Assembly (NCBI GenBank): GCA_018266475.1
Contig: JAFEAI010000005.1
Coordinates: 1-38,352 of the forward strand
Direction of reading: 5' to 3'
From: Bacteroidota bacterium
GTDB taxonomy: Bacteria; Bacteroidota; Bacteroidia; Flavobacteriales_F; PHOS-HE28
DNA: 38,352 bases
Part shown: piece by piece, positions 3,886 through 14,103 of the stretch
Position numbering within the stretch: the first letter of the stretch is position 1
How the letters are laid out: the number at the start of each line of letters is the position of its first letter
The notes under the pieces: generated by a model
Told to the model about the DNA's origin: nothing
Seen by the model: the letters and a program-made list of their open reading frames with translations, nothing else
Database searches by the model: none
Program-made: the position numbers and the translations under genes

Positions 3886-4206
3886 ATGGCAATTGAACTG
3901 ACCGACAGCAACTTTGAGGAACTCGCCCTGAAGAGCGACAAGCCCGTAATGGTGGACTTCTGGGCGGAATGGTGCGGCCCCTGCCGCATGGTCGGTCCCG
4001 TGGTGGAGGAACTGGCCAAGGATTACGAAGGCAAGGCCGTGGTGGGCAAGGTGAACGTGGACAACAACCCCCAGGTGGCCATGAAGTATGGCATCCGCAG
4101 CATTCCAACCATCCTGTTCCTGAAGAACGGTGAAGTGGTGGACCGCAGCGTGGGCGCCGTGCCCAAGAGCACCCTGGCCACCAAGCTGGAAGGGCAGTTG
4201 GCCTGA
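3886..4206 (+). CDS. trxA: Thioredoxin
   Basis: Cytoplasmic disulfide reductase of 106 residues, the normal size for the family. The active site WCGPC has its two cysteines at positions 30 and 33, preceded by the usual VDFWAEW strand, and the cis-proline motif SIPT follows. I chose the ATG at 3886 ([10 protein letters not shown]) because it gives a standard thioredoxin N terminus; an upstream in-frame ATG at 3808 would add 26 residues with no family resemblance. It sits 129 nt after dnaE on the same strand, and I found no clear promoter box in that gap. It ends just before a strong palindromic terminator and is convergent with the T9SS cargo genes. Confidence 0.97.
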
Positions 4207-4222
4207 CCGGCCCCGGTATGAC

Positions 4223-4256
4223 GCAAGAAGCCCGGCGCATGCGCCGGGCTTCTTGC
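4223..4256. terminator. Perfect palindrome, likely bidirectional terminator
   Basis: GCAAGAAGCCCGGCGCA is followed directly by its exact reverse complement, giving a 34-bp perfect palindrome between the convergent ends of trxA and the T9SS cargo operon. The stem is flanked by A-rich and T-rich arms (AAGAAG/CTTCTT), so a hairpin followed by a short U-rich run forms in either direction. Confidence 0.8.
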
Positions 4257-4272
4257 ATTCAGTGCCTGCCTC

Positions 4273-5196
4273 CTACTCCACTTTCTGCCAACGCTGCGTG
4301 GCCCGGTAGCCCGCAGCCGTGGAGAACGAAACGAAGTACAGGCCGGGGCGCAGCAACTGCAGCTCCAGTGCCCCGGCAGCAGGCAAGGACCGCAATGCAA
4401 GAACGGTACGCCCCATGGCGTCCGCCACGGATGCATCCACCGCACCGGCCACCGGCAGCGCATAGTTCACGCGGCCCGTGCCCGGGTTGGGCCACAAGGC
4501 AAAAGGCCCGGGCCCATTGCCCTCCGGCAGCCCAAGGGGCAGCGCGCATCCGTTAGGGACCGCCTGATAGCCCACCACCTCATCGGAATAACAGGTAAGC
4601 GTGCAGTAGCATTCAAACACGCTTCCGCAGTGCCCGATGGGGAAGAAATAGCCCTCCAGCGTGCCGATGCGTTCCGCGATCCACTCGGCCGGGTAAAATC
4701 CGTCCGGGTCCGATCCCGTGCGCTGCACGTGCAGCTTGCGCAGCACCACCCCGTCCTGCTCCATCGTGCCTGTTTCCAGCACCGTGAACCGGTGGTCCGG
4801 CGGGCACTCCTCCGCGAAGGCCCAGGGCGCCCGCCAACTGTCCCCTACTTGGGCACCGAACCAGTACAGGGTATCCCACGCAGCTGCAGGCGCATTCCAC
4901 AGGAACACCACATCCGCCGCATGGCGCGTGATGGCCGCATGCGGAACCGATGAAAGGATCAGCGTATCCGTGCCAAACACATGGGTGATCAGCTGCTCGG
5001 AATCGATCCGCTGCGCCGATTGGCCGTCCACTACGGTATCACCCGCATAGTGGAAGCTGGTCTTGGCATCCATTCCCGGGCTTCCCGTATCGTACACCCA
5101 CCGGGCACCCGGCGGGCACCAGGATTGGGCGCTGGCGATGGAGCACCCGATTGCCCCCGCCAGGGCCATTGCGATGTTGAAGCTGTATTTGCTCAT
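4273..5196 (-). CDS. Secreted T9SS cargo protein with C-terminal sorting domain
   Basis: Unknown function; 307 residues. A signal peptide (about residues 1-23, ending SIASAQ) directs export to the periplasm. The last ~75 residues, starting at LWPNPGTGRV and ending in RPGLYFVSFS...QRWQKVE, form a type-A T9SS sorting domain, so the product should reach the surface or medium. The central part has no domain I can name; it contains a Cys-rich stretch (GHCGSVFECYCTLTC). The ATG at 5196 overlaps the stop of the upstream gene (ATGA), which implies translational coupling and favours it over the ATG at 5208. It is the last gene of a three-gene set of T9SS cargo, ending at a bidirectional terminator. 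Confidence 0.88.
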   Translation of the reverse strand: MSKYSFNIAMALAGAIGCSIASAQSWCPPGARWVYDTGSPGMDAKTSFHYAGDTVVDGQSAQRIDSEQLITHVFGTDTLILSSVPHAAITRHAADVVFLWNAPAAAWDTLYWFGAQVGDSWRAPWAFAEECPPDHRFTVLETGTMEQDGVVLRKLHVQRTGSDPDGFYPAEWIAERIGTLEGYFFPIGHCGSVFECYCTLTCYSDEVVGYQAVPNGCALPLGLPEGNGPGPFALWPNPGTGRVNYALPVAGAVDASVADAMGRTVLALRSLPAAGALELQLLRPGLYFVSFSTAAGYRATQRWQKVE

Positions 5197-6701
5197 TGCT
5201 TGATCCATTTGGCAACTGCCTTGGTGCCTGTTTCCGAAATGACTGACAGTAGGTACACGCCTGGGGAAAGCATGGATATGTCCAACGGAGCATCGCCGCT
5301 GCGCAAGTTATGTGCGAGCAAGGTGCGCCCCTGCAGGTCCTCCACAAGCACGCTGAACTTGCCCGGCATGTCCCAGGCTATGTGCAAGCGATCGTCGGCC
5401 GGGTTGGGATACACGCTTAGGGCGGGCACCGCTGCGGCCTCCTCGCCCACCCCCACGTTCAGCGGAAACAAGCGCATGAGCAGCCGCTGCTCAGGATGGT
5501 CCCCGCAGCCATCGTTGTAGCCGGAGAACCTGCCCCAAATGTAGATGTAGCCATTAGGTGCTTTCTTAATGCCCATTAAAGAACATCCTGGCGTTTGCCC
5601 ATATAGCGGCTGGGTAAAGCCCGCCCCGGTGCCTGGCAAATAGTCCCAGAGCACATTCCCTGCGGTATCAATAGTGGTGATGGCACCCAGCGTTTGGCCC
5701 CCGATCTCATTGAAATCACCGACCACGATCAGCTTGCCCGGCTCTATCTCGAGATAGTCCCATACGGCAGCCAAGCCCCTGAAGTAACCGTAAGCCAGGA
5801 AGGGGATGGATGGCCAAGTGGTATCGGTGCTGCCATCGGGCAGCAGGCGCATCACGGCTAAGGTGTCATCGGGATACTCCGGGGCCATGAACCGCCCGAA
5901 CACCAGCATGCGGCCATCCGGGTAATGGTAAATCGTGGAACCGCCCCCAGCCCAAGTGATGGAAGTATGGAAGGTGGTGTCCAGGTGGCTGTCCGGCCTG
6001 ATCTTGAACAACGCCCCTACCGGATGCCCTTCATACTCTAATCCATTTGAGGCGGTGATCAAAAAGTTCCCGTCAGGTAGCTCAAGGATGGTCCGCAGAA
6101 AGGCTTGGGGCGTGTACTTGTGGTCGAAGTCCGGATCAATTAGGCCATTGGGCAGTGCCTGCAACAATCCATAGCCCGGCTGATGCAGCACTTCATTGCC
6201 TTCCTCATCCCAGGCATGCCTGGTGTAATAGCCCAAACGCCACATTGTACCGTCGGGGAAGAGGTGGTAGCCACCGGCTTGGCCGAACGTCCACACCCAC
6301 GGAGGGGGATCAAGAAAGTAAGAGTGGTCCATTGTGCCTTCCACGAGATGGTATCTCGCATATCCATTGCTTCGTTGGATGTACAAGGAATTACCTTGGA
6401 TGGCAAGCTGACCTGCATCATTGACGTAGGTCGGCCCGAACAAGGGGTCGATGGCCCCGTGCGGCAACACCCGTGTAAGGCCAACGGTTGTAGTCCCCCC
6501 TTGTTGGATCACTTCCAGTGACTGCCTAAGGCCGAGGCCAGAGACAATGATCCGCCCGTTCGCCATAAAGGCCACGTCGTACAGCTCGCCAACCGGGGGA
6601 TACCCGAACTGGAAGCTTTCGTCCACGCACAGCGGTGCTTGCGCCCTGGCCGAAGCCAAGGCACAAGCACCGGTTGCCAATAGCAGGAATGCGCGCTTCA
6701 T
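5193..6701 (-). CDS. T9SS cargo protein with delta-60 repeats
   Basis: Predicted exported protein of 502 residues. The signal peptide MKRAFLLLATGACALASARAQA is followed by several copies of the delta-60 (beta-propeller-like) repeat, recognisable from recurring blocks such as IDPDFDHKY...LPDGNFLI, LDTTFHTS...YPDGRMLVFGRF and TDTTWPS...PGKLIVVGDFNEIGG. From about residue 430 there is a type-A T9SS sorting domain (VYPNPADDRLHI ... MLSPGVYLLSV). Function is unknown; delta-60 proteins are common surface proteins in Bacteroidota. It starts 6 nt after the stop of the metalloprotease gene and overlaps the next gene by ATGA, so the three are almost certainly one transcript. Confidence 0.9.
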   Translation of the reverse strand: MKRAFLLLATGACALASARAQAPLCVDESFQFGYPPVGELYDVAFMANGRIIVSGLGLRQSLEVIQQGGTTTVGLTRVLPHGAIDPLFGPTYVNDAGQLAIQGNSLYIQRSNGYARYHLVEGTMDHSYFLDPPPWVWTFGQAGGYHLFPDGTMWRLGYYTRHAWDEEGNEVLHQPGYGLLQALPNGLIDPDFDHKYTPQAFLRTILELPDGNFLITASNGLEYEGHPVGALFKIRPDSHLDTTFHTSITWAGGGSTIYHYPDGRMLVFGRFMAPEYPDDTLAVMRLLPDGSTDTTWPSIPFLAYGYFRGLAAVWDYLEIEPGKLIVVGDFNEIGGQTLGAITTIDTAGNVLWDYLPGTGAGFTQPLYGQTPGCSLMGIKKAPNGYIYIWGRFSGYNDGCGDHPEQRLLMRLFPLNVGVGEEAAAVPALSVYPNPADDRLHIAWDMPGKFSVLVEDLQGRTLLAHNLRSGDAPLDISMLSPGVYLLSVISETGTKAVAKWIKQ

Positions 6702-6707
6702 GGTTGC

Positions 6708-9700
6708 TTAGGGGTTTACTACCACGCGTTGGGCCCCCACCAACCTGCCCGCGTTGTAGAGTTCCACCAAATAGCTGCCTGGCGCGGTTCCGCGGGTATC
6801 CCAGATCTCCTGGCCGGGGGAAGCACCGATGGCCATTTCGTTCACCACCCTGCCCAAGGGGTCCACTATGCGGATCCGGGCCTGGTCCACCTTGCCGGGC
6901 AACGTGTGGCTGAAGGCCACCCAGGTGCTAGCCGGGTTGGGATGGGCGAGCAGCGAAGGTGTTGTAGCTGTGGATGTGGCTGCGGGTAGTGCCAACGCCA
7001 TCTTGGGCTGGTTTGCACCGCCCGTAACCGGAGGCATGCAGATGTTGTACCCATAGCACAACGTATTACGGGCATATGAAGAGGCCAAGGAAGGTTGGCG
7101 TGTGGCAATGCCCTCCATGGCCGCCAATTCACCGGGTTCCAATTGCATCAGGGTCCGTCCACCATCGATCACCGGGCGGATCGCCGTGATCAGGTCCAGC
7201 ATATCGTTGCGGTCCTGCATGCCCTGCTTCTCCAGCAAATAATCGGCATCCAAGCCTTGCAGCAAGGCGACGGCTTCATCGAAGCGGTTCTGCTCCAGCA
7301 GCACGTTCACCTCCCCGAACCGCGCTCGCAGGCTCGGGTTCAGTTGCCACCGCGCCAACAGACTGTCCGCAGGTTGGGCCACGGTATCGTTCAGCATGGC
7401 AGTGGTAAGCTCATCGTTCAACCGTTGGTATTCGCCGTTGTGCCAACCCATGTCCGCCTCCAAGCTGGTGCGCCAGGTCCGTTGGTTCCAGGAGGCAAAC
7501 ACCTGCGCCACCATGTATTCCGGCAAGGGGTTGGGCATTTCGTACTGCAGCCACTTGGTGAACCCGTCCCGCTGGGTGGCCTCCGGATTGGCCAAGCACA
7601 CCTCCAAGTACATGGCGTGGGGAAGGATGTTCTTCAGGCCCGCCTCTTTCAGGATGTCGGTGCTGAGGTAAGGGCTTTTTGCCATCAGTTCGTTGCGCAG
7701 CGCCCAGGCGTCCTGCGGCCAGCTGTGCATGATGGTCTCCTTCAGCTCATCGAAATCACCACCGTCCAGCAGGCTTTCATATACGTACTTCAGGTTCAGG
7801 TAGGCCGTACGTTCCTGGGCGATCTGCGGCATCAGGGCTTCCTTCACCGGGCCGGTGCCGCCCCCGCACAGGATCCGCGTGGGGCAGGTGTTGTGGGGCG
7901 ATGCAATTGCATTGCGCTGCACCCATGGTATGTTGTAGGCTCCCGCGTTCAGGTCCCCAGGCGGCAATTCCCAGAAATAGGTGATCGGGAGCACCCTTGC
8001 CTTATTGTGGTAGTTGTAGTAGGGCGAACTTCCGTTCTGCTGCGGGGTGAAGGTGTTGCCTGCGGAAACGGCGGAGGAGCCTTGGAAGATCTTGATGCAG
8101 TGATCCGAACCCGGGTTTGCGAAGGAGCTCCTGACCTCAAAATCTTCCTCGCCGTTCTGCACGTTCTGGTTGCAGATGAACGACAAGCCCGTTTTGGTGG
8201 GGTGTACTGGGTCCACGTTCGCATTTTCCCCAATGTACCCAAAGTGCACCCCTGCGGCCGTGTTCTTGTACACTTGGTTGTTGTACGCCGCAGTGTTGCT
8301 CACCACCACCCCTTCCGATCGGGCAGGGTATATGCTTGGTTTCGAGAAACGGTTCTCCTCGATCTTGAAGGCATTTGCATTGTTATGGTAAATGCCCCGA
8401 TGCTTTTCCTGGAACAAATCATCTAAGCCATTGAGTACCACATCGCGCCCCCCGATCACGAACTTGTTGCGCAGGATCGCGGCATTGTTCACGCCATCGG
8501 TATAGATGCCGCAGACGTTGTTCTCAAAGTAGGAATCCTTCACCGTGTAGGTATATCCCCCAATTCCGCTGGTGGTGGCACGGATGCCATGGTCCAGGCC
8601 GATGAAGCGGGAGGGCTTTAGCGAAGCCTGCGGGCACACGGGTTCAGGCTGCCCGGAACCGTACTCGCAAGGCGGAAGCTGCTGGCTGCACATGGCGGTT
8701 ACGCTGAAAGAAGCATCCAAGCTGAAGATGCCGACACCAAGGTCCGCACTGCCATGCACAATGCCGCCCGTTGCTTGGCCATTGGAGAAATCGCATTGCG
8801 AGAACGCGATCCCGCGCACTTCATTCAGGCGTACGTGTGCATCAAAGGGCGTGGCCCCCCTGTAATCGTCGTTCACTTCAAAAATTGCATGGCGGAAATA
8901 GCTGTTGTCGTTCTTGGTGGTTGCAGGGTTGTTGGGGTAGAAATTGCGGTACTTCATGTACTCCGCACCCCTGCGGCAGTTCCGGAATGTGGCTCCTGGA
9001 TCCGTGATCGTTCCTTGCACCATAAGAACCCCTCCCCGTTCATTCGGTGTGCCAAAGCGGTTATTGGCAAAGCCAATGTCGGCATGCTCGATCAGGGCAC
9101 CGTTCTTCAGGACCACAAGACCTTGGAAGGTAGGGTTGTTCGCAGGCTCCTGGTGCTGGTAGGAGGTGCCGTCCGCAATGATGCCGCGCCACATCTTGCC
9201 GGGGTGCGCACAGGTTATAGTCCCGCCGTCCACGATCAACCGCCCGCCCGGCCTCACTTCCACTATTCCGTCCACAGGCATGCGCACCTCGCATTTTATC
9301 GTGAGGGTCTTTCCGGCGGTCACTATGATGTCCTCGTACATTTTGATCGCAAAGTCCCAGGTTTCATCTTCCGTGATCCAATGTGTTCCGATGGAATGCG
9401 TTTCCTCAACGTATTGGTGCATGGTCCTATTGTCCAAGGTAAAGCTGTTGTCGTAGAACGACAATGCCCTATGCATCCGGCCCGCTTGCTTGCGGCTAAT
9501 GAATTTCTCATTTCCGCCCGAGGACATCAGAGGGCGGTAGTTGGGGAATTGGTTGAAGAAGCACGATGTCAGGTGGCACACATGGTTGGCCGTGGGATTG
9601 CATCCGTTGTAGCACGGGCTACCGGAGTTGGACATGGCCGGTTCGGGGCATGTGCCGAACACATCGCTGAGGAAGTCATAATGCGTGATCGCCCTGCCAG

Positions 9701-10472
9701 CACCGGCCTCTGGCCCATCATAGGTATGATGGAGGCCCAAGGCATGCCCATACTCATGGGCCAGATGGTAGGTATGGTCATCCAATGGGGTCCAAAGTGG
9801 CGAAGCCCCCCACATCGAATTCCTCGTGAAGACGTAGGAGTGGCTGCCATACCCGGGAACGGTACTGGTGGAGTAGTGCCCCCAACCGTATCCTGCAGGC
9901 CAGGTGCCTGGCTGTGCGAAGATGTGGTTCATGGCCTTTTCGGATCCGGGATAGGTGGAGAACACGTAGGCGAGTATGTTTGAAATGACCTGGCCCGTGC
10001 CATAGGGTTCGGCATTCCATGCATCGGAGTTGAGGAAGTAGATCTGGTTCAGCTTGAAGCGGATCCTGGTGTCCTGCACACCCGCTGGCGCGCCACAGGT
10101 GAGCGCATATCCGGCCGGCTGAACGTCACCGTACCACGTATTCACCCGATCGATCAGTTGCTGGGCCTCTGCCCTGAACTGCGGCGTATCCTGCCATCCG
10201 TTGCCTCCTTGGGAATTGCGGCAGATGACGAAGTTGATCAATACGGTCTTCACAGGAGACCAAACCTCCGGTGCCCAATACCCGGGTGTACGGTACTTGT
10301 CCAACCAAGTGGAACTGGAGTATGCGCAACCTGCACCCCGTTGTTCTCCGCTTTCAGGCTCCTGAAGGTTCGTTCCGCAGGTCCTGTCCATTGGAGGCTG
10401 TGCGTGCAACTGCCCCACGAAGGAGGCGATCAACGTTGCAATGGCGAGCAGGGTCCACCAGCTCCGCGCCAT
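6708..10472 (-). CDS. Large secreted metzincin-type metalloprotease with beta-helix and T9SS sorting domain
   Basis: A 1254-residue exported protein. Signal peptide at residues 1-24 (ending QLHAQ). The zinc-binding motif HEYGHALGLHH begins at H239, with E240 as catalytic base and H249 as third ligand, followed by a plausible Met-turn (RPLMSSGG); this is the metzincin pattern, most like pappalysin-type M43 enzymes. Residues about 390-870 have repeating short strands typical of a right-handed parallel beta-helix (for example EVRPGGRLIVDGGTI, LKNGALIEHADIGFANN). A helical region follows (about 880-1130), then a type-A T9SS sorting domain (AHPNPASTWVAFS to the end). First gene of a three-gene cargo operon behind a good Bacteroidota promoter. 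The substrate is unknown. M43 assignment is moderate; exported zinc protease and T9SS cargo are strong. Confidence 0.87.
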   Translation of the reverse strand: MARSWWTLLAIATLIASFVGQLHAQPPMDRTCGTNLQEPESGEQRGAGCAYSSSTWLDKYRTPGYWAPEVWSPVKTVLINFVICRNSQGGNGWQDTPQFRAEAQQLIDRVNTWYGDVQPAGYALTCGAPAGVQDTRIRFKLNQIYFLNSDAWNAEPYGTGQVISNILAYVFSTYPGSEKAMNHIFAQPGTWPAGYGWGHYSTSTVPGYGSHSYVFTRNSMWGASPLWTPLDDHTYHLAHEYGHALGLHHTYDGPEAGAGRAITHYDFLSDVFGTCPEPAMSNSGSPCYNGCNPTANHVCHLTSCFFNQFPNYRPLMSSGGNEKFISRKQAGRMHRALSFYDNSFTLDNRTMHQYVEETHSIGTHWITEDETWDFAIKMYEDIIVTAGKTLTIKCEVRMPVDGIVEVRPGGRLIVDGGTITCAHPGKMWRGIIADGTSYQHQEPANNPTFQGLVVLKNGALIEHADIGFANNRFGTPNERGGVLMVQGTITDPGATFRNCRRGAEYMKYRNFYPNNPATTKNDNSYFRHAIFEVNDDYRGATPFDAHVRLNEVRGIAFSQCDFSNGQATGGIVHGSADLGVGIFSLDASFSVTAMCSQQLPPCEYGSGQPEPVCPQASLKPSRFIGLDHGIRATTSGIGGYTYTVKDSYFENNVCGIYTDGVNNAAILRNKFVIGGRDVVLNGLDDLFQEKHRGIYHNNANAFKIEENRFSKPSIYPARSEGVVVSNTAAYNNQVYKNTAAGVHFGYIGENANVDPVHPTKTGLSFICNQNVQNGEEDFEVRSSFANPGSDHCIKIFQGSSAVSAGNTFTPQQNGSSPYYNYHNKARVLPITYFWELPPGDLNAGAYNIPWVQRNAIASPHNTCPTRILCGGGTGPVKEALMPQIAQERTAYLNLKYVYESLLDGGDFDELKETIMHSWPQDAWALRNELMAKSPYLSTDILKEAGLKNILPHAMYLEVCLANPEATQRDGFTKWLQYEMPNPLPEYMVAQVFASWNQRTWRTSLEADMGWHNGEYQRLNDELTTAMLNDTVAQPADSLLARWQLNPSLRARFGEVNVLLEQNRFDEAVALLQGLDADYLLEKQGMQDRNDMLDLITAIRPVIDGGRTLMQLEPGELAAMEGIATRQPSLASSYARNTLCYGYNICMPPVTGGANQPKMALALPAATSTATTPSLLAHPNPASTWVAFSHTLPGKVDQARIRIVDPLGRVVNEMAIGASPGQEIWDTRGTAPGSYLVELYNAGRLVGAQRVVVNP

Positions 10473-10558
10473 GCGGCGCCTTATACCATTCGCATTCGCG
10501 GCAGGGTAATCAGCCGCCGTTGGATGCTCAATCTTCCCTGCTTGGCATGGAAGTTGAA

Positions 10559-10570
10559 GGGGGGGGGGGG
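10559..10570. repeat. G12 homopolymer tract
   Basis: Twelve consecutive G on the plus strand (C12 on the sense strand of the protease gene), 87-98 nt upstream of the start codon and downstream of the predicted promoter, hence inside the mRNA leader. Tracts of this length are prone to slipped-strand length change; sequencing error in length is also possible. Confidence 0.85.
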
Positions 10571-10614
10571 AGTTTAGTCATTGCGTTTTGGTTTTAGGTG
10601 TTAAAAGGCGTTTT

Positions 10615-10645
10615 CAAACTTGAGGTGTATATTTTTCATTTCCAA
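10615..10645 (-). promoter_or_regulatory. Promoter of the T9SS cargo operon
   Basis: On the minus strand TTGG (-33) is followed after exactly 19 nt by CAAGTTTG (-7), against the Bacteroidota consensus TTTG-N19-TAnnTTTG. It lies in a locally AT-rich segment and predicts a leader of about 135 nt containing the homopolymer tract. Confidence 0.6.
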
Positions 10646-10818
10646 GTTAATTAAGTTATTTTAACAGAAATAGTAGAAACAGATGTTGAATAACTCGTAG
10701 TTGCGGATTATAGCGGGCCTGCGGAATTGGACGGCCGCCTCAGGTCCGCCCAACTGACGGCCATCCGTCGGCAACGCGGAAGATTACGGGCTGAGGACAA
10801 TGGATTTGCGGTACGCCC

Positions 10819-12567
10819 CTACTCGGCGAACTGCAGGTCATACAGCCTCCGGTAGGCGCCGTTCATGGCCAGCAGCTCCTGATGCGTGCCCTGCTCCACG
10901 ATGCGCCCGGCATCCACCACCAGGATGCGGTCGGCCTTTTGGATGGTGCTCAGGCGGTGGGCGATGACGATGCTGGTGCGCCCGCGGGTGATCTTCTCCG
11001 TGGCCCGCTGGATCATCTGCTCGCTGTGGCTGTCCACGCTGCTGGTGGCCTCGTCCAGCACCAGCACCTTGGGGGCGTTCACGTAAGCGCGGATGAAGGC
11101 CAGCAGCTGGCGTTGGCCCACGCTGAGGATGGCGCCGCGCTCGCGCACGGGCGTGTCGTAGCCTTGCGGCAGCTGCATGATGAACCCGTGGGCGCCCACG
11201 GCCTTGGCGGCTTCCACCACCACCTCGCGCGGGATGGAATCGTCGTTCATGGTGATGTTGTTGTGTACGGTATCGCTGAACAGGAACACGTCCTGCAGCA
11301 CCACGGAGATGCTTTTGCGCAGCTCGCCCAGGCGGTATTCGCGGATGTTCAGGCCGTCCAGCAGCACTTCCCCCTTTTGGTATTCATAGGCGCGGCTCAG
11401 CACGTTCACCATGCTGCTCTTGCCGCTGCCGGTGGCGCCCACCAGGGCGATCATCTCCCCTGCCCGCGCCTGGAAGGTGATGCCCTTGAGCACGTATTCC
11501 TCCTCATTGTAGGCCAGCCACAGGTCGCGGAAGGCAATGTCGCCCTTCACCCCTTCGGTGCCGCGGGTGCCGTTGGCTTCCATGCCCGCCTCGGTGTCCA
11601 GCACGGCGAACACGCGCTCGCTGCCCACCATGCCCATCTGCAGCACGTTGAAGCGGTCCGCCAATTGGCGCACGGGCCGGTAGAGCATGTTGATGAACTG
11701 CAGGAAGGCGATCAGCTCGCCGAAGGTGGCCACGCCCTGGAGCACATCGCCCACGCCCCACCAGATAAGGATGGCGATGGATACGGCGCTGAGCACGTCC
11801 ACCACGGGGAAGAACACCGAATAGGCCATCACCGAGCGGATGTGCGCGGCGCGGTGCCCGCGGTTGATCTGCTTGAACTTTTCGTGCTCCTGCCTTTCGC
11901 GCCCGAAGAGCTGCACGATGGCCATGCCCTGGATGTGCTCCTGCACGAAGGCGTTCAACTTGGCCACCTGGTTGCGCACGTCGATGAAGCTGCGCTGGAT
12001 GGAATTCTTGAAGATGCGCGTGGCCCACAGCAGCAGCGGGATGGGCACTAAGCTCCACAGCGCCAGCTCCCAGTTGTACACGAACATCACCACCACCACC
12101 ACCACCAGCTTCAGCAGGTCGCCCATGATGCTGAGCAGGCCCTGGGAGAAGATCTCCTCGATGGTCTCGATGTCGCTTACCACGCGCGTGACCAGCGTAC
12201 CGATGGGCGTGCGGTCGAAGTAGCGCATGCGGAACGTGGTGATCTTGGCGAAGAGCGCCTGCCGCAGGTCGATGGTGACGGTTTGGCCCAGCCAGCTGGT
12301 CCAGTAGGCCTGGTGGAATTGCACGAAGGCCTCCAACGCCATCAGGGCCACGAGCACGGCCATCAGGATGTACAGCCCTTGCACATCGCCCTTGGCGGCA
12401 TGGTCGTCCACCATCACCCCCATGAGCACCGGCCGCACCACGGCCAATAGCGACAGCAGGATGGTAAGGGCGAAGGTGGTCCAGAACAGGCGGCGGTACG
12501 GGCGCACGAACTGCATCACCCGGCGGAACAGGCCCGTGTCGAACGCCTTGCCCTTGGTGGCGCTCAT
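10819..12567 (-). CDS. ABC exporter, fused permease and ATPase
   Basis: A 582-residue half-transporter of the type-IV exporter (MsbA/lipid-multidrug) fold. N-terminal six-helix domain (about residues 20-320) is followed by a nucleotide-binding domain with Walker A GATGSGKSS (about 377-385), signature LSVGQ (about 480-484, a common variant of LSGGQ), Walker B VLVLDEATS and the H-loop IAHRLST. Likely acts as a homo- or heterodimer in the inner membrane exporting lipid or drug-like compounds; the substrate cannot be read from sequence. The ATG at 12567 overlaps the truA stop (ATGA), which fixes the start; the open frame extends 78 codons upstream through truA but that part is out-of-frame noise. 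Confidence 0.93.
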   Translation of the reverse strand: MSATKGKAFDTGLFRRVMQFVRPYRRLFWTTFALTILLSLLAVVRPVLMGVMVDDHAAKGDVQGLYILMAVLVALMALEAFVQFHQAYWTSWLGQTVTIDLRQALFAKITTFRMRYFDRTPIGTLVTRVVSDIETIEEIFSQGLLSIMGDLLKLVVVVVVMFVYNWELALWSLVPIPLLLWATRIFKNSIQRSFIDVRNQVAKLNAFVQEHIQGMAIVQLFGRERQEHEKFKQINRGHRAAHIRSVMAYSVFFPVVDVLSAVSIAILIWWGVGDVLQGVATFGELIAFLQFINMLYRPVRQLADRFNVLQMGMVGSERVFAVLDTEAGMEANGTRGTEGVKGDIAFRDLWLAYNEEEYVLKGITFQARAGEMIALVGATGSGKSSMVNVLSRAYEYQKGEVLLDGLNIREYRLGELRKSISVVLQDVFLFSDTVHNNITMNDDSIPREVVVEAAKAVGAHGFIMQLPQGYDTPVRERGAILSVGQRQLLAFIRAYVNAPKVLVLDEATSSVDSHSEQMIQRATEKITRGRTSIVIAHRLSTIQKADRILVVDAGRIVEQGTHQELLAMNGAYRRLYDLQFAE

Positions 12568-13322
12568 GGCTGCTGCGCGGGGATGAAGGGATAGTGGATG
12601 CGGGAGAGGTAGAGCCCGCAGGCCGGTGCGCTCTTGCCGGCCATGCCGCGCTGCCCGGAGGCCAGCACCTCGGCCATGTACGCCGCCTGCCAATGCCCGC
12701 GCCCGATGCGGATGCACGTGCCCACGATGGCGCGCACCATGTTGCGCAGGTAGCGGTCCGCCGTGATGGTGAACCGGTAACCGGCCTGCGTGGCGGCCCA
12801 TTCGGCCTGCCGCACCTCGCAGATGGCCGTGCGGTTGTCGCTGCCGGTGCGCTGGAAGCAGCTGAAATCCCGCTTGCCGAGCAGCAGCGTGCAGGCCGCG
12901 TTCATGGCCTGCACGTCCAGTTCCACGTGCAGCAGGTACGACCGGAGGTGCAGGAAGGGATCTTTTTGCCGGTGGACCAGGTACGTGTATTCGCGTTCCC
13001 TGGCGCTGAAGCGGGCATGGGCGTCATCCGCCACGGCATGCAGCTGCTTGGCCGCGATGCTGGCCGGCAGCACGGCGTTCATGCCCAGCACGAACCGGTC
13101 ATGGTCGGTGATGGGTGCTTGCGTGTCGAAGTGCAGGAAATAGGACGAGGCATGCACGCCGGTATCGGTGCGCCCGCAGCCCACCGCGTTCACCTTGGGG
13201 AGGTGCAGGCGAAGCTGCAGCGCCCGCTCCACCTCCGCCTGCACGCTGGCCGCCTCCGCCTGCCGCTGCCAGCCCCGGTAGGGCGTGCCGTCGTAGGCGA
13301 GTTCCAGGAAATAGCGGGGCAT
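12564..13322 (-). CDS. truA: tRNA pseudouridine(38-40) synthase TruA
   Basis: Converts uridines 38-40 of the tRNA anticodon stem to pseudouridine. The 252-residue product opens with RYFLELAYDGTPYRGWQRQ and carries the catalytic aspartate in GRTDTGVHA (D53), plus the conserved RNMVRAIVGT motif near the C terminus. Length and N terminus are normal for the family. It is first in a two-gene unit with the ABC exporter, coupled by a 4-nt overlap; this pairing looks like simple co-transcription, not a functional link. A -7-like box (TAATTTCG) lies 27 nt upstream, in a 62-nt divergent promoter region shared with the phosphoesterase gene. Confidence 0.97.
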   Translation of the reverse strand: MPRYFLELAYDGTPYRGWQRQAEAASVQAEVERALQLRLHLPKVNAVGCGRTDTGVHASSYFLHFDTQAPITDHDRFVLGMNAVLPASIAAKQLHAVADDAHARFSAREREYTYLVHRQKDPFLHLRSYLLHVELDVQAMNAACTLLLGKRDFSCFQRTGSDNRTAICEVRQAEWAATQAGYRFTITADRYLRNMVRAIVGTCIRIGRGHWQAAYMAEVLASGQRGMAGKSAPACGLYLSRIHYPFIPAQQP

Positions 13323-13349
13323 GTACGGGCGGGCACGTGTTAGGGGGCA

Positions 13350-13357
13350 CGAAATTA
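13350..13357 (-). promoter_or_regulatory. -7-like box of truA
   Basis: TAATTTCG on the minus strand, one mismatch from TAnnTTTG, ending 27 nt before the truA ATG. It sits in the short divergent region with the phosphoesterase promoter. Confidence 0.45.
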
Positions 13358-13372
13358 AGGGCTGGCCCTAAC

Positions 13373-13380
13373 GACCTTTG
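13373..13380 (+). promoter_or_regulatory. -7-like box of the phosphoesterase gene
   Basis: GACCTTTG differs from TAnnTTTG only at its first base and ends 4 nt before the ATG at 13385, which would make the mRNA essentially leaderless. Confidence 0.45.
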
Positions 13381-13384
13381 GCCC

Positions 13385-13882
13385 ATGAAGCGCATCGGCC
13401 TGTTGAGCGACACCCACGGCTGGCTGGATCCCCGCCTGCGCGCGCATTTCTCCGCCTGCGACGAGATCTGGCATGCCGGCGACATAGGCACGGGCGGGGT
13501 GACCGATGCACTGAAAAGCTGGAAACCCTTGCGGGCCGTACACGGCAACATCGATGGCACCGCGCTGCGCGCCGATTTCCCCGAAAACCTGCGCTTCACC
13601 CTGGAAGGCGTTGACGTGTGGATCACCCACATCGGCGGAAGGCCGCCACGCTATGACCCCGCCGTGCGCGCGGCCTTGAAGGACAATCCGCCCGCGCTGT
13701 TCATCTGCGGCCATTCCCACATCTGCATGGTGAAGTACGACTCCGCGCTGAACATGCTGTACATGAACCCCGGCGCCGCAGGCAGGCACGGCTGGCACAA
13801 GGTGCGCACCGCGTTGCGCTTCACCATGGACAACGGAAAGCTCAAGGACCTGGAGGTGATCGAGCTGGGGGGGCGGGGAGAA

Positions 13883-13900
<18 letters not shown>
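13385..13900 (+). CDS. YfcE/MJ0936-type metallophosphoesterase
   Basis: Small calcineurin-fold phosphodiesterase, 171 residues. All metal-binding blocks are present in order: SDTHG (residues 8-12), HAGDIG, VHGNID, THIGG and GHSHI. Proteins of this size act on phosphodiester or nucleotide substrates; the natural substrate is unknown. I start at the ATG at 13385 ([12 protein letters not shown]), which puts the first motif at its normal position; an open frame reaches back to 13115 but crosses truA antisense. The last codons (GEVGSGQ-stop) are encoded by the first units of the heptamer repeat array, so the repeat supplies the stop codon and the original C terminus may have been altered. Confidence 0.93.

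Positions 13901-14103
<203 letters not shown>

Follow-up and report, generated by a model that had tools for sequence, protein, structure and literature searches.

What does an operon of three predicted surface proteins contribute to a cell, and do all three of its products act together? The question is raised by a locus in a 38,352-nt stretch of Bacteroidota DNA (here called the window), where three genes, A, B and C, each predicted to encode a protein with a signal peptide and a T9SS sorting domain, follow one another closely on the minus strand. The first-pass annotation proposed that the three are translated together and work together, perhaps as a proteolytic or adhesin complex at the cell surface. 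Here we argue that the locus is, on balance, probably a phase-variable, head-swapping T9SS surface operon organised around a conserved A–B pair. Two features bearing on this reading, the swapping of heads on A and a repeat tract upstream of A, went unnoticed in the first pass.

Operon layout and genomic setting

Gene A (6708..10472, minus strand, 1254 amino acids) is defined by its open reading frame, by Pfam and NCBIfam profiles and by a structural model of residues 25–1180. It is followed after 6 nt (6702–6707) by gene B (5193..6701, minus strand, 502 amino acids), which encodes a secreted delta-60/DUF5122 beta-propeller protein with a T9SS sorting domain, and then by gene C (4273..5208, minus strand, 311 amino acids from the first ATG), which encodes a secreted, beta-rich, cysteine-containing protein, likewise with a sorting domain. 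Translation of C from its first ATG gives a 16-nt overlap with B, translation from the second ATG at 5196 (MSKYSF, with the sequence ATGA) an overlap of 4 nt; 5196 is the likely start. The gene order, coordinates, strand and 6-nt gap are as first annotated, and so is the 4-nt overlap if C starts at 5196. The signal peptides of all three proteins were assigned by eye from the translations, and the presence of both signal peptides and sorting domains leads us to regard B and C as predicted surface proteins. Between C and trxA a 30-nt perfect palindrome (AAGAAGCCCGGCGCATGCGCCGGGCTTCTT; 4225..4254, minus strand) can be read directly from the sequence and is a possible candidate for a shared terminator.

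The operon lies between trxA and an ABC-transporter gene (4206–10819). These two flanking genes are adjacent in three of eight relatives, with 82–98 nt between the matches (L261–L263). In two more (L260 and L264) they are separated by other genes, which by eye encode sorting-domain proteins and a regulator of LytTR type, and in the other three they are not neighbours. With the slot empty, otherwise filled or split, the operon looks like the cargo of a variable slot.

Domains and predicted structures of A, B and C

Sorting domains had been assigned to all three proteins, and this is borne out for B and C, which score 39.3 and 25.5 bits against NCBIfam TIGR04183 (cut-off 23); A falls slightly under the cut-off at 19.2 bits. 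Of the 32 proteins aligned for A, 29 match the Por_Secre_tail profile (PF18962); the row for the window ends before its own sorting domain. The C-terminal 80 residues of C take the fold of T9SS sorting domains of known structure (8glk, Z 10.9; 8gl8, Z 10.3; 8qb1, Z 10.2). The N-terminal domain of C adopts a fold with no firm match among solved structures, the similarity to 3fzx (YmcC-like; Z 8.1 over 163 residues, rmsd 4.9) lying in the common range. As annotated, C is small and cysteine-containing, with eight cysteines in 311 amino acids, one of them within the signal peptide. The delta-60 identity of B is likewise upheld by a single DUF5122/delta-60 repeat scoring 40.7 in Pfam (cut-off 27), whereas NCBIfam TIGR02608 scores 37.7 against a cut-off of 76.5. 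Sequence searches of solved structures returned a marginal match for B, to 5jvk (E 0.0013) and inside the sorting domain, and marginal matches only for A.

Gene A encodes, in order, a signal peptide (10401..10472, minus strand, if translation starts at the internal ATG; boundary placed by eye on the translation), a metzincin head of adamalysin/M43-like type (9438..10253, minus strand; from profiles, model and zinc motif) and a core (6711..9407, minus strand; from alignment and model) that comprises a beta-helix (7911–9389), a helical region (7047–7847), a CYGYxxC motif (7017–7067) and the sorting domain (6711–6941). The model, with a mean pLDDT of 71, ends where the sorting domain begins. Its alpha/beta head is predicted with moderate confidence and the right-handed beta-helix with confidence; the helical region and a linker follow. 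The description of A as a metzincin/beta-helix protein agrees with both the zinc motif and the model: HEYGHALGLHH at residues 239–249 (9726–9758) fits the metzincin consensus HExxHxxGxxH, and the modelled head resembles adamalysin (1iag; E 4.1e-4, probability 1.00, TM-score on target 0.64), with an rmsd of 7.3 over 284 columns and moderate confidence in the head. Curated Pfam cut-offs are missed by both metallopeptidase profiles (Reprolysin_5, 20.6 against 27; M43, 15.5 against 23). Taken with the motif, the model predicts a metzincin fold for the head of the window protein. The Z-scored structure matches of the A model span the beta-helix only. Among the proteins that this helix resembles are NosD, tailspikes and the passenger of Vag8 (Z 25.8 over 354 residues, rmsd 3.2). 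In the A alignment, each Pfam family besides the sorting domain and the metallopeptidase heads is found in at most two of the 32 members.

A and B form a conserved unit

Matches to a profile of the A core are found at E 1e-40 in 35 of 45 genomes of the family, and a scan of species genomes gave 70 A loci, judged from record titles to be mostly in Bacteroidota with one in Ignavibacteriales and with Brumimicrobium and Cryomorpha isolates among them. Rather than lying at unrelated loci with no conserved gene pair, the orthologues stay together: of 61 distinct A genes that have 900 nt or more of sequence behind them (26 duplicate records and eight with less than 900 nt having been removed), 47 carry B directly after the core, five of the others being followed by another sorting-domain gene and nine by none. 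Neither B nor another sorting-domain gene lies downstream at three Brumimicrobium A loci. For the window and the loci examined from the same genus the count is 27 of 27; these loci come from the better-scoring part of the candidate list, mainly from higher-scoring A-like places, and weaker A-like genes fall outside it. All four A cores in the window's own genome adjoin B, and at one same-genus locus (L204) a second, divergent A-like gene is followed by a different sorting-domain gene. Because the pair recurs in most relatives examined, the pairing of A and B is more than chance: the two form a conserved unit. Distances among A cores also correlate with those among B proteins (r 0.78 for 41 pairs and 0.67 for 24 same-genus pairs, kinship ignored), the maximum in 1000 shuffles being 0.20 and 0.28, respectively.

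Gene C is a looser member, since C-type genes also occur elsewhere in the window's own genome. It follows B in 13 of 39 units (12 of an initial 51 having been removed as too short after B), with no sorting-domain gene in 23 and a different one in three; at one locus (L053) a C-type gene precedes A.

These counts bear on the proposal that A, B and C make up one stable, constitutive surface complex for proteolysis or adhesion. It would account for the tight gene spacing, for the A–B distance correlation and for the A–B–C order kept in Cryomorpha ignava (L214), a Vicingaceae MAG (L226) and an ALOHA record (L242). The protease head, however, is not conserved with B, C is missing after B in 26 of the 39 units and A genes carry repeat tracts, and we regard such a complex as unlikely. 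That the genes belong together as a unit is upheld chiefly for A and B, C being optional. Proteolysis as the common function is not supported: the protease is an exchangeable head, in whose place the cores most similar to that of the window have a Vps10-type propeller or a subtilase.

Two variations on the usual layout were also seen. In a Vicingaceae MAG (L228, 10588–18163) one A gene is followed by five tandem B genes. Among units with a second class of propeller head (L068–L072, L077 and L189), C follows B in none of the seven with enough sequence, six having no further sorting-domain gene and L189 a different one; several protease and Vps10 heads, unlike this class, do have C.

Heads are exchanged on a common core

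Only the core of A, that is the beta-helix, helical region and sorting domain, is common to its relatives; the head varies. A core 75% identical to that of the window (L053) carries a Vps10-type propeller (PF15902, 41.8 bits against a cut-off of 33), and one that is 68% identical (L056) carries an S8 subtilase (PF00082, 71.8 against 21.8). DNA similarity between the window and these two loci begins only within the beta-helix, near 9170. The Pfam scan, which covered ten heads, found elsewhere a beta-helix head (PF13229, 51.2 against 25.9), M43-like heads slightly below the cut-off of 23 (20.6–21.4) and further heads of BNR or other propeller-like type. Grouping by BLAST linkage divides the heads of the 41 pairs into 14 classes, the M43-like heads being spread over several. 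Of 24 same-genus A genes, 15 differ in head class from the gene with the nearest core: heads are exchanged on a conserved core. The swapping is not free, since nearest core neighbours share a head class at a frequency of 0.375 compared with 0.14 for shuffled labels (P 0.0085).

As B stays whichever head is present, its role is most likely tied to the core of A and not to proteolysis. At five loci, orphan A tails of 171–212 amino acids without an evident signal peptide adjoin B copies (L066, 8085–8618; L070, 7005–7643; L086, 2765–3325; L087, 6185–6700; L088, 4298–4816), as repeated recombination would predict.

A modular variable end, a conserved partner and orphan A tails beside B copies could also bring to mind a polymorphic effector system, in which the heads would be toxic and B or C would act as immunity or anchoring partners. 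We consider this very improbable, as the variable end is N-terminal and not a C-terminal toxin with a cognate immunity gene, the heads matched by Pfam are ordinary secreted folds (proteases, propellers and a beta-helix), and B and C themselves bear signal peptides and sorting domains.

Repeat tracts at the start of A genes

Upstream of A in the window lies a tract of 12 C residues (10559..10570, minus strand; G on the plus strand), which we propose to be a phase switch. It is crossed by a short leader reading frame (10528..10581, minus strand) that opens at ATG 10581, encodes MTKLPPPPSTSMPSRED and then reaches a stop. This ATG is out of frame with A, its frame closing after 17 codons, and deletion of one C from the tract would join it to the frame of A. 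As read from the sequence, then, the length of this repeat tract, placed where a predicted surface gene begins, would set the frame of ATG 10581. A second usable ATG of A, at 10472, lies past the tract and opens a frame with a signal peptide of its own, and because of this the tract could sit in a leader.

Upstream of the leader ATG, a match to the Bacteroidota −7/−33 promoter consensus is weak (TTG...CAAGTTTG), being reached by 7% of shuffles. A TAC[AC]TT element occurs at nine of 11 loci against 0.20 expected and was set aside, having been picked post hoc; the window is among the two that lack it.

Such tracts recur across the genus. A C/G run of at least nine lies within 200 nt of the open reading frame start in nine of 25 same-genus A genes, where 0.28 would be expected from the background of eight tracts in the 285,309 bases elsewhere (P 4.6e-12), and is absent from the other 16. 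One of these, the tenth tract-bearing gene of the 25, has instead a CCTT repeat of 12.75 units, and a metzincin-headed relative (L164) has (AC)16 directly past its start. The count of 25 excludes L056, which has an N gap and poly-runs, L061, where the frame of the head is interrupted, L164, whose frame is defined from stop to stop only, and genes cut at contig ends. Many of the same-genus tracts fall inside the code for the signal peptide. At L064, for example, the tract lies within a signal peptide in the frame of A, MRTRRLWLAALAAAFIASPPPTGLLLITSAYAQ, if it has one C fewer, and in six genes (L060, L064, L070, L071, L072 and L078) the signal peptide, judged by eye, needs translation through the tract in the correct frame to be complete. 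In three genomes, five signal peptides that are homologous to one another have conserved flanks around tracts of C5-A-C6, 8, 9, 11 and 12, these being differences between homologous loci, with one genome per species and the window tract not among them.

Of 12 A genes with a tract, 11 have their closest upstream ATG in the wrong frame in the assemblies, where neutral switching would give two thirds; assembly errors could contribute to the excess. The exception is L079, and at L067 and L080 an ATG further upstream is in frame. This count excludes L056, L059 and L081, where the tract is far upstream or suspect, and L077, which has no ATG. No C/G run of at least eight is found at the start of A in 32 loci taken, from title and divergence, to lie outside the genus, an absence in which composition may play a part.

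Genome-wide, long C/G runs are not confined to signal peptides. The window's own genome has 14 separate runs of at least 10, not an unusual total given that a rough hand calculation for random sequence of 60% GC gives about 29; of the 14, three are tied to a signal-peptide leader (the window, L124 and L126) and two more lie at an N terminus (L125 and L127). In a second genome (G010, a single contig) the corresponding figure is three of seven, and the tracts at L136 and L137 split the signal peptides of other surface proteins.

Could the tracts instead have no active role, being remnants prone to slippage or errors of assembly in a genome rich in GC, with A starting downstream? The ATG past the tract in the window would allow this, as would the fact that the named same-genus records are MAGs, that the poly-C runs at L056, L122 and L159, at contig ends or beside an N gap, look artefactual, and that most long C/G runs of the window's own genome lie away from signal peptides. 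We nevertheless doubt it, given the strong positional bias towards A genes, the six signal peptides (by eye) that need the tract to be translated and the finding that repeats of three types share this position. Alternatively, a polymerase or ribosome slipping on the C run might give a constant low level of A with no heritable switching, which would fit with most assembled tracts being out of frame while the cores downstream are open and conserved. That the tracts vary in length across homologous sites speaks against this, as do the AC and CCTT repeats, which to our knowledge are not classical slippage signals, and we hold it to be quite improbable. Phase variation of A genes across the genus is well supported, and less so for the window tract because of the second ATG after it.

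Poly-C/G tracts of at least 10 in signal-peptide regions beyond the A genes counted above were noted at L124 and L126 in the window's own genome, at L136 and L137 in G010, at L142 and L145 in G032 and at L153, L154 and L157 in G029. Two of them (L153 and L154) belong to further A-type heads and the rest to other surface proteins, some of which presumably end in an S74-like tail-fibre chaperone region. Together these tracts hint at a phasome that might extend across the whole genus. At L053 and L055, tracts of C12 and C10 are found 1.3 kb upstream of A and in front of a C-type gene, and no signal peptide is visibly split by them. Elsewhere in the window, tandem repeats with a 7-nt unit, (AGTGGGC)n and (CTGCCAT)n, occur at 13945–14051 after an open reading frame at 13115–13900; L090 ends in another heptamer repeat.

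A model for the operon

In the phase-variable reading that we favour, A would be a multidomain surface protein in which a swappable N-terminal head sits on a stalk formed by the right-handed beta-helix, followed by the helical region and the sorting domain. B, a secreted beta-propeller, would be translated along with A and serve its core whatever the head, possibly in direct contact, and C would be an optional third member at the surface. Slippage within the run of 12 C would shift the start codon at 10581 into or out of the frame of A, so that living cells would stochastically make or skip the protein, and with A off, translational coupling would probably mean less B and C. Recombination within the conserved core would move heads between copies, the likely gain being varied surface activities with respect to substrates, phages or grazers.

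A more far-reaching version, possible but tentative, is a genus-wide display resembling antigenic variation, with several A–B operons per genome built on a single stalk-and-anchor chassis that takes different heads. At any given moment the repeat tracts would keep most copies off, and the spare A tails and B copies would serve as recombination donors. Every cell would then carry its own combination of proteases and propellers.

Repeat-driven phase variation is known mostly from host-adapted pathogens. If the phase-variable reading is right, uncultivated Flavobacteriales would diversify their surfaces stochastically by means of repeat-switched T9SS proteins with exchangeable heads, and the A core and its partner B would gain a testable role. 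If the upstream starts are used, automatic gene calls that begin past the tract would miss the true start and the signal peptide.

Comparison with known systems

A literature search of partial coverage returned no paper that we recognised as dealing with the A–B–C operon or with repeat-driven phase variation of T9SS cargo. A 2025 review describes phase variation in Bacteroides as inversion, in the part of it available to us (PMC11868660); the string 'flavobacter' is absent from its text.

Like T9SS type A cargo in general (TIGR04183/PF18962), the proteins combine a signal peptide with a C-terminal sorting domain, export being predicted here; unlike it, they form a conserved, co-translated gene unit around a core barely covered by Pfam. 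The window head shares the HExxHxxGxxH motif and the modelled fold of adamalysin and pappalysin (M43) metzincins but is one of several head types of A, with Pfam scores below cut-off. The right-handed beta-helix is shared with surface proteins such as the Vag8 autotransporter passenger (7akv), PfbA (4mr0) and phage tailspikes (Z 20.9–25.8 over 335–354 residues and 11–13% identity for 7akv, 6nw9, 2vbe and 4mr0), from which A differs in its predicted T9SS export, exchangeable head and helical region.

The closest parallel for the tracts lies in simple sequence repeat (SSR) contingency loci. As far as the accessible text of the source goes, those of Campylobacter have repeats at the starts of surface genes with in-frame and out-of-frame states, and the phasome cut-offs used there are C/G runs of at least seven, dinucleotide repeats of at least six units and tetranucleotide repeats of at least five (PMC6321876), lengths that the A-gene repeats reach. 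In the sources as far as available, Neisseria and Haemophilus likewise have poly-C/G, dinucleotide and tetranucleotide repeats at surface-gene starts. Unlike these contingency loci, the operon described here belongs to the Bacteroidota.
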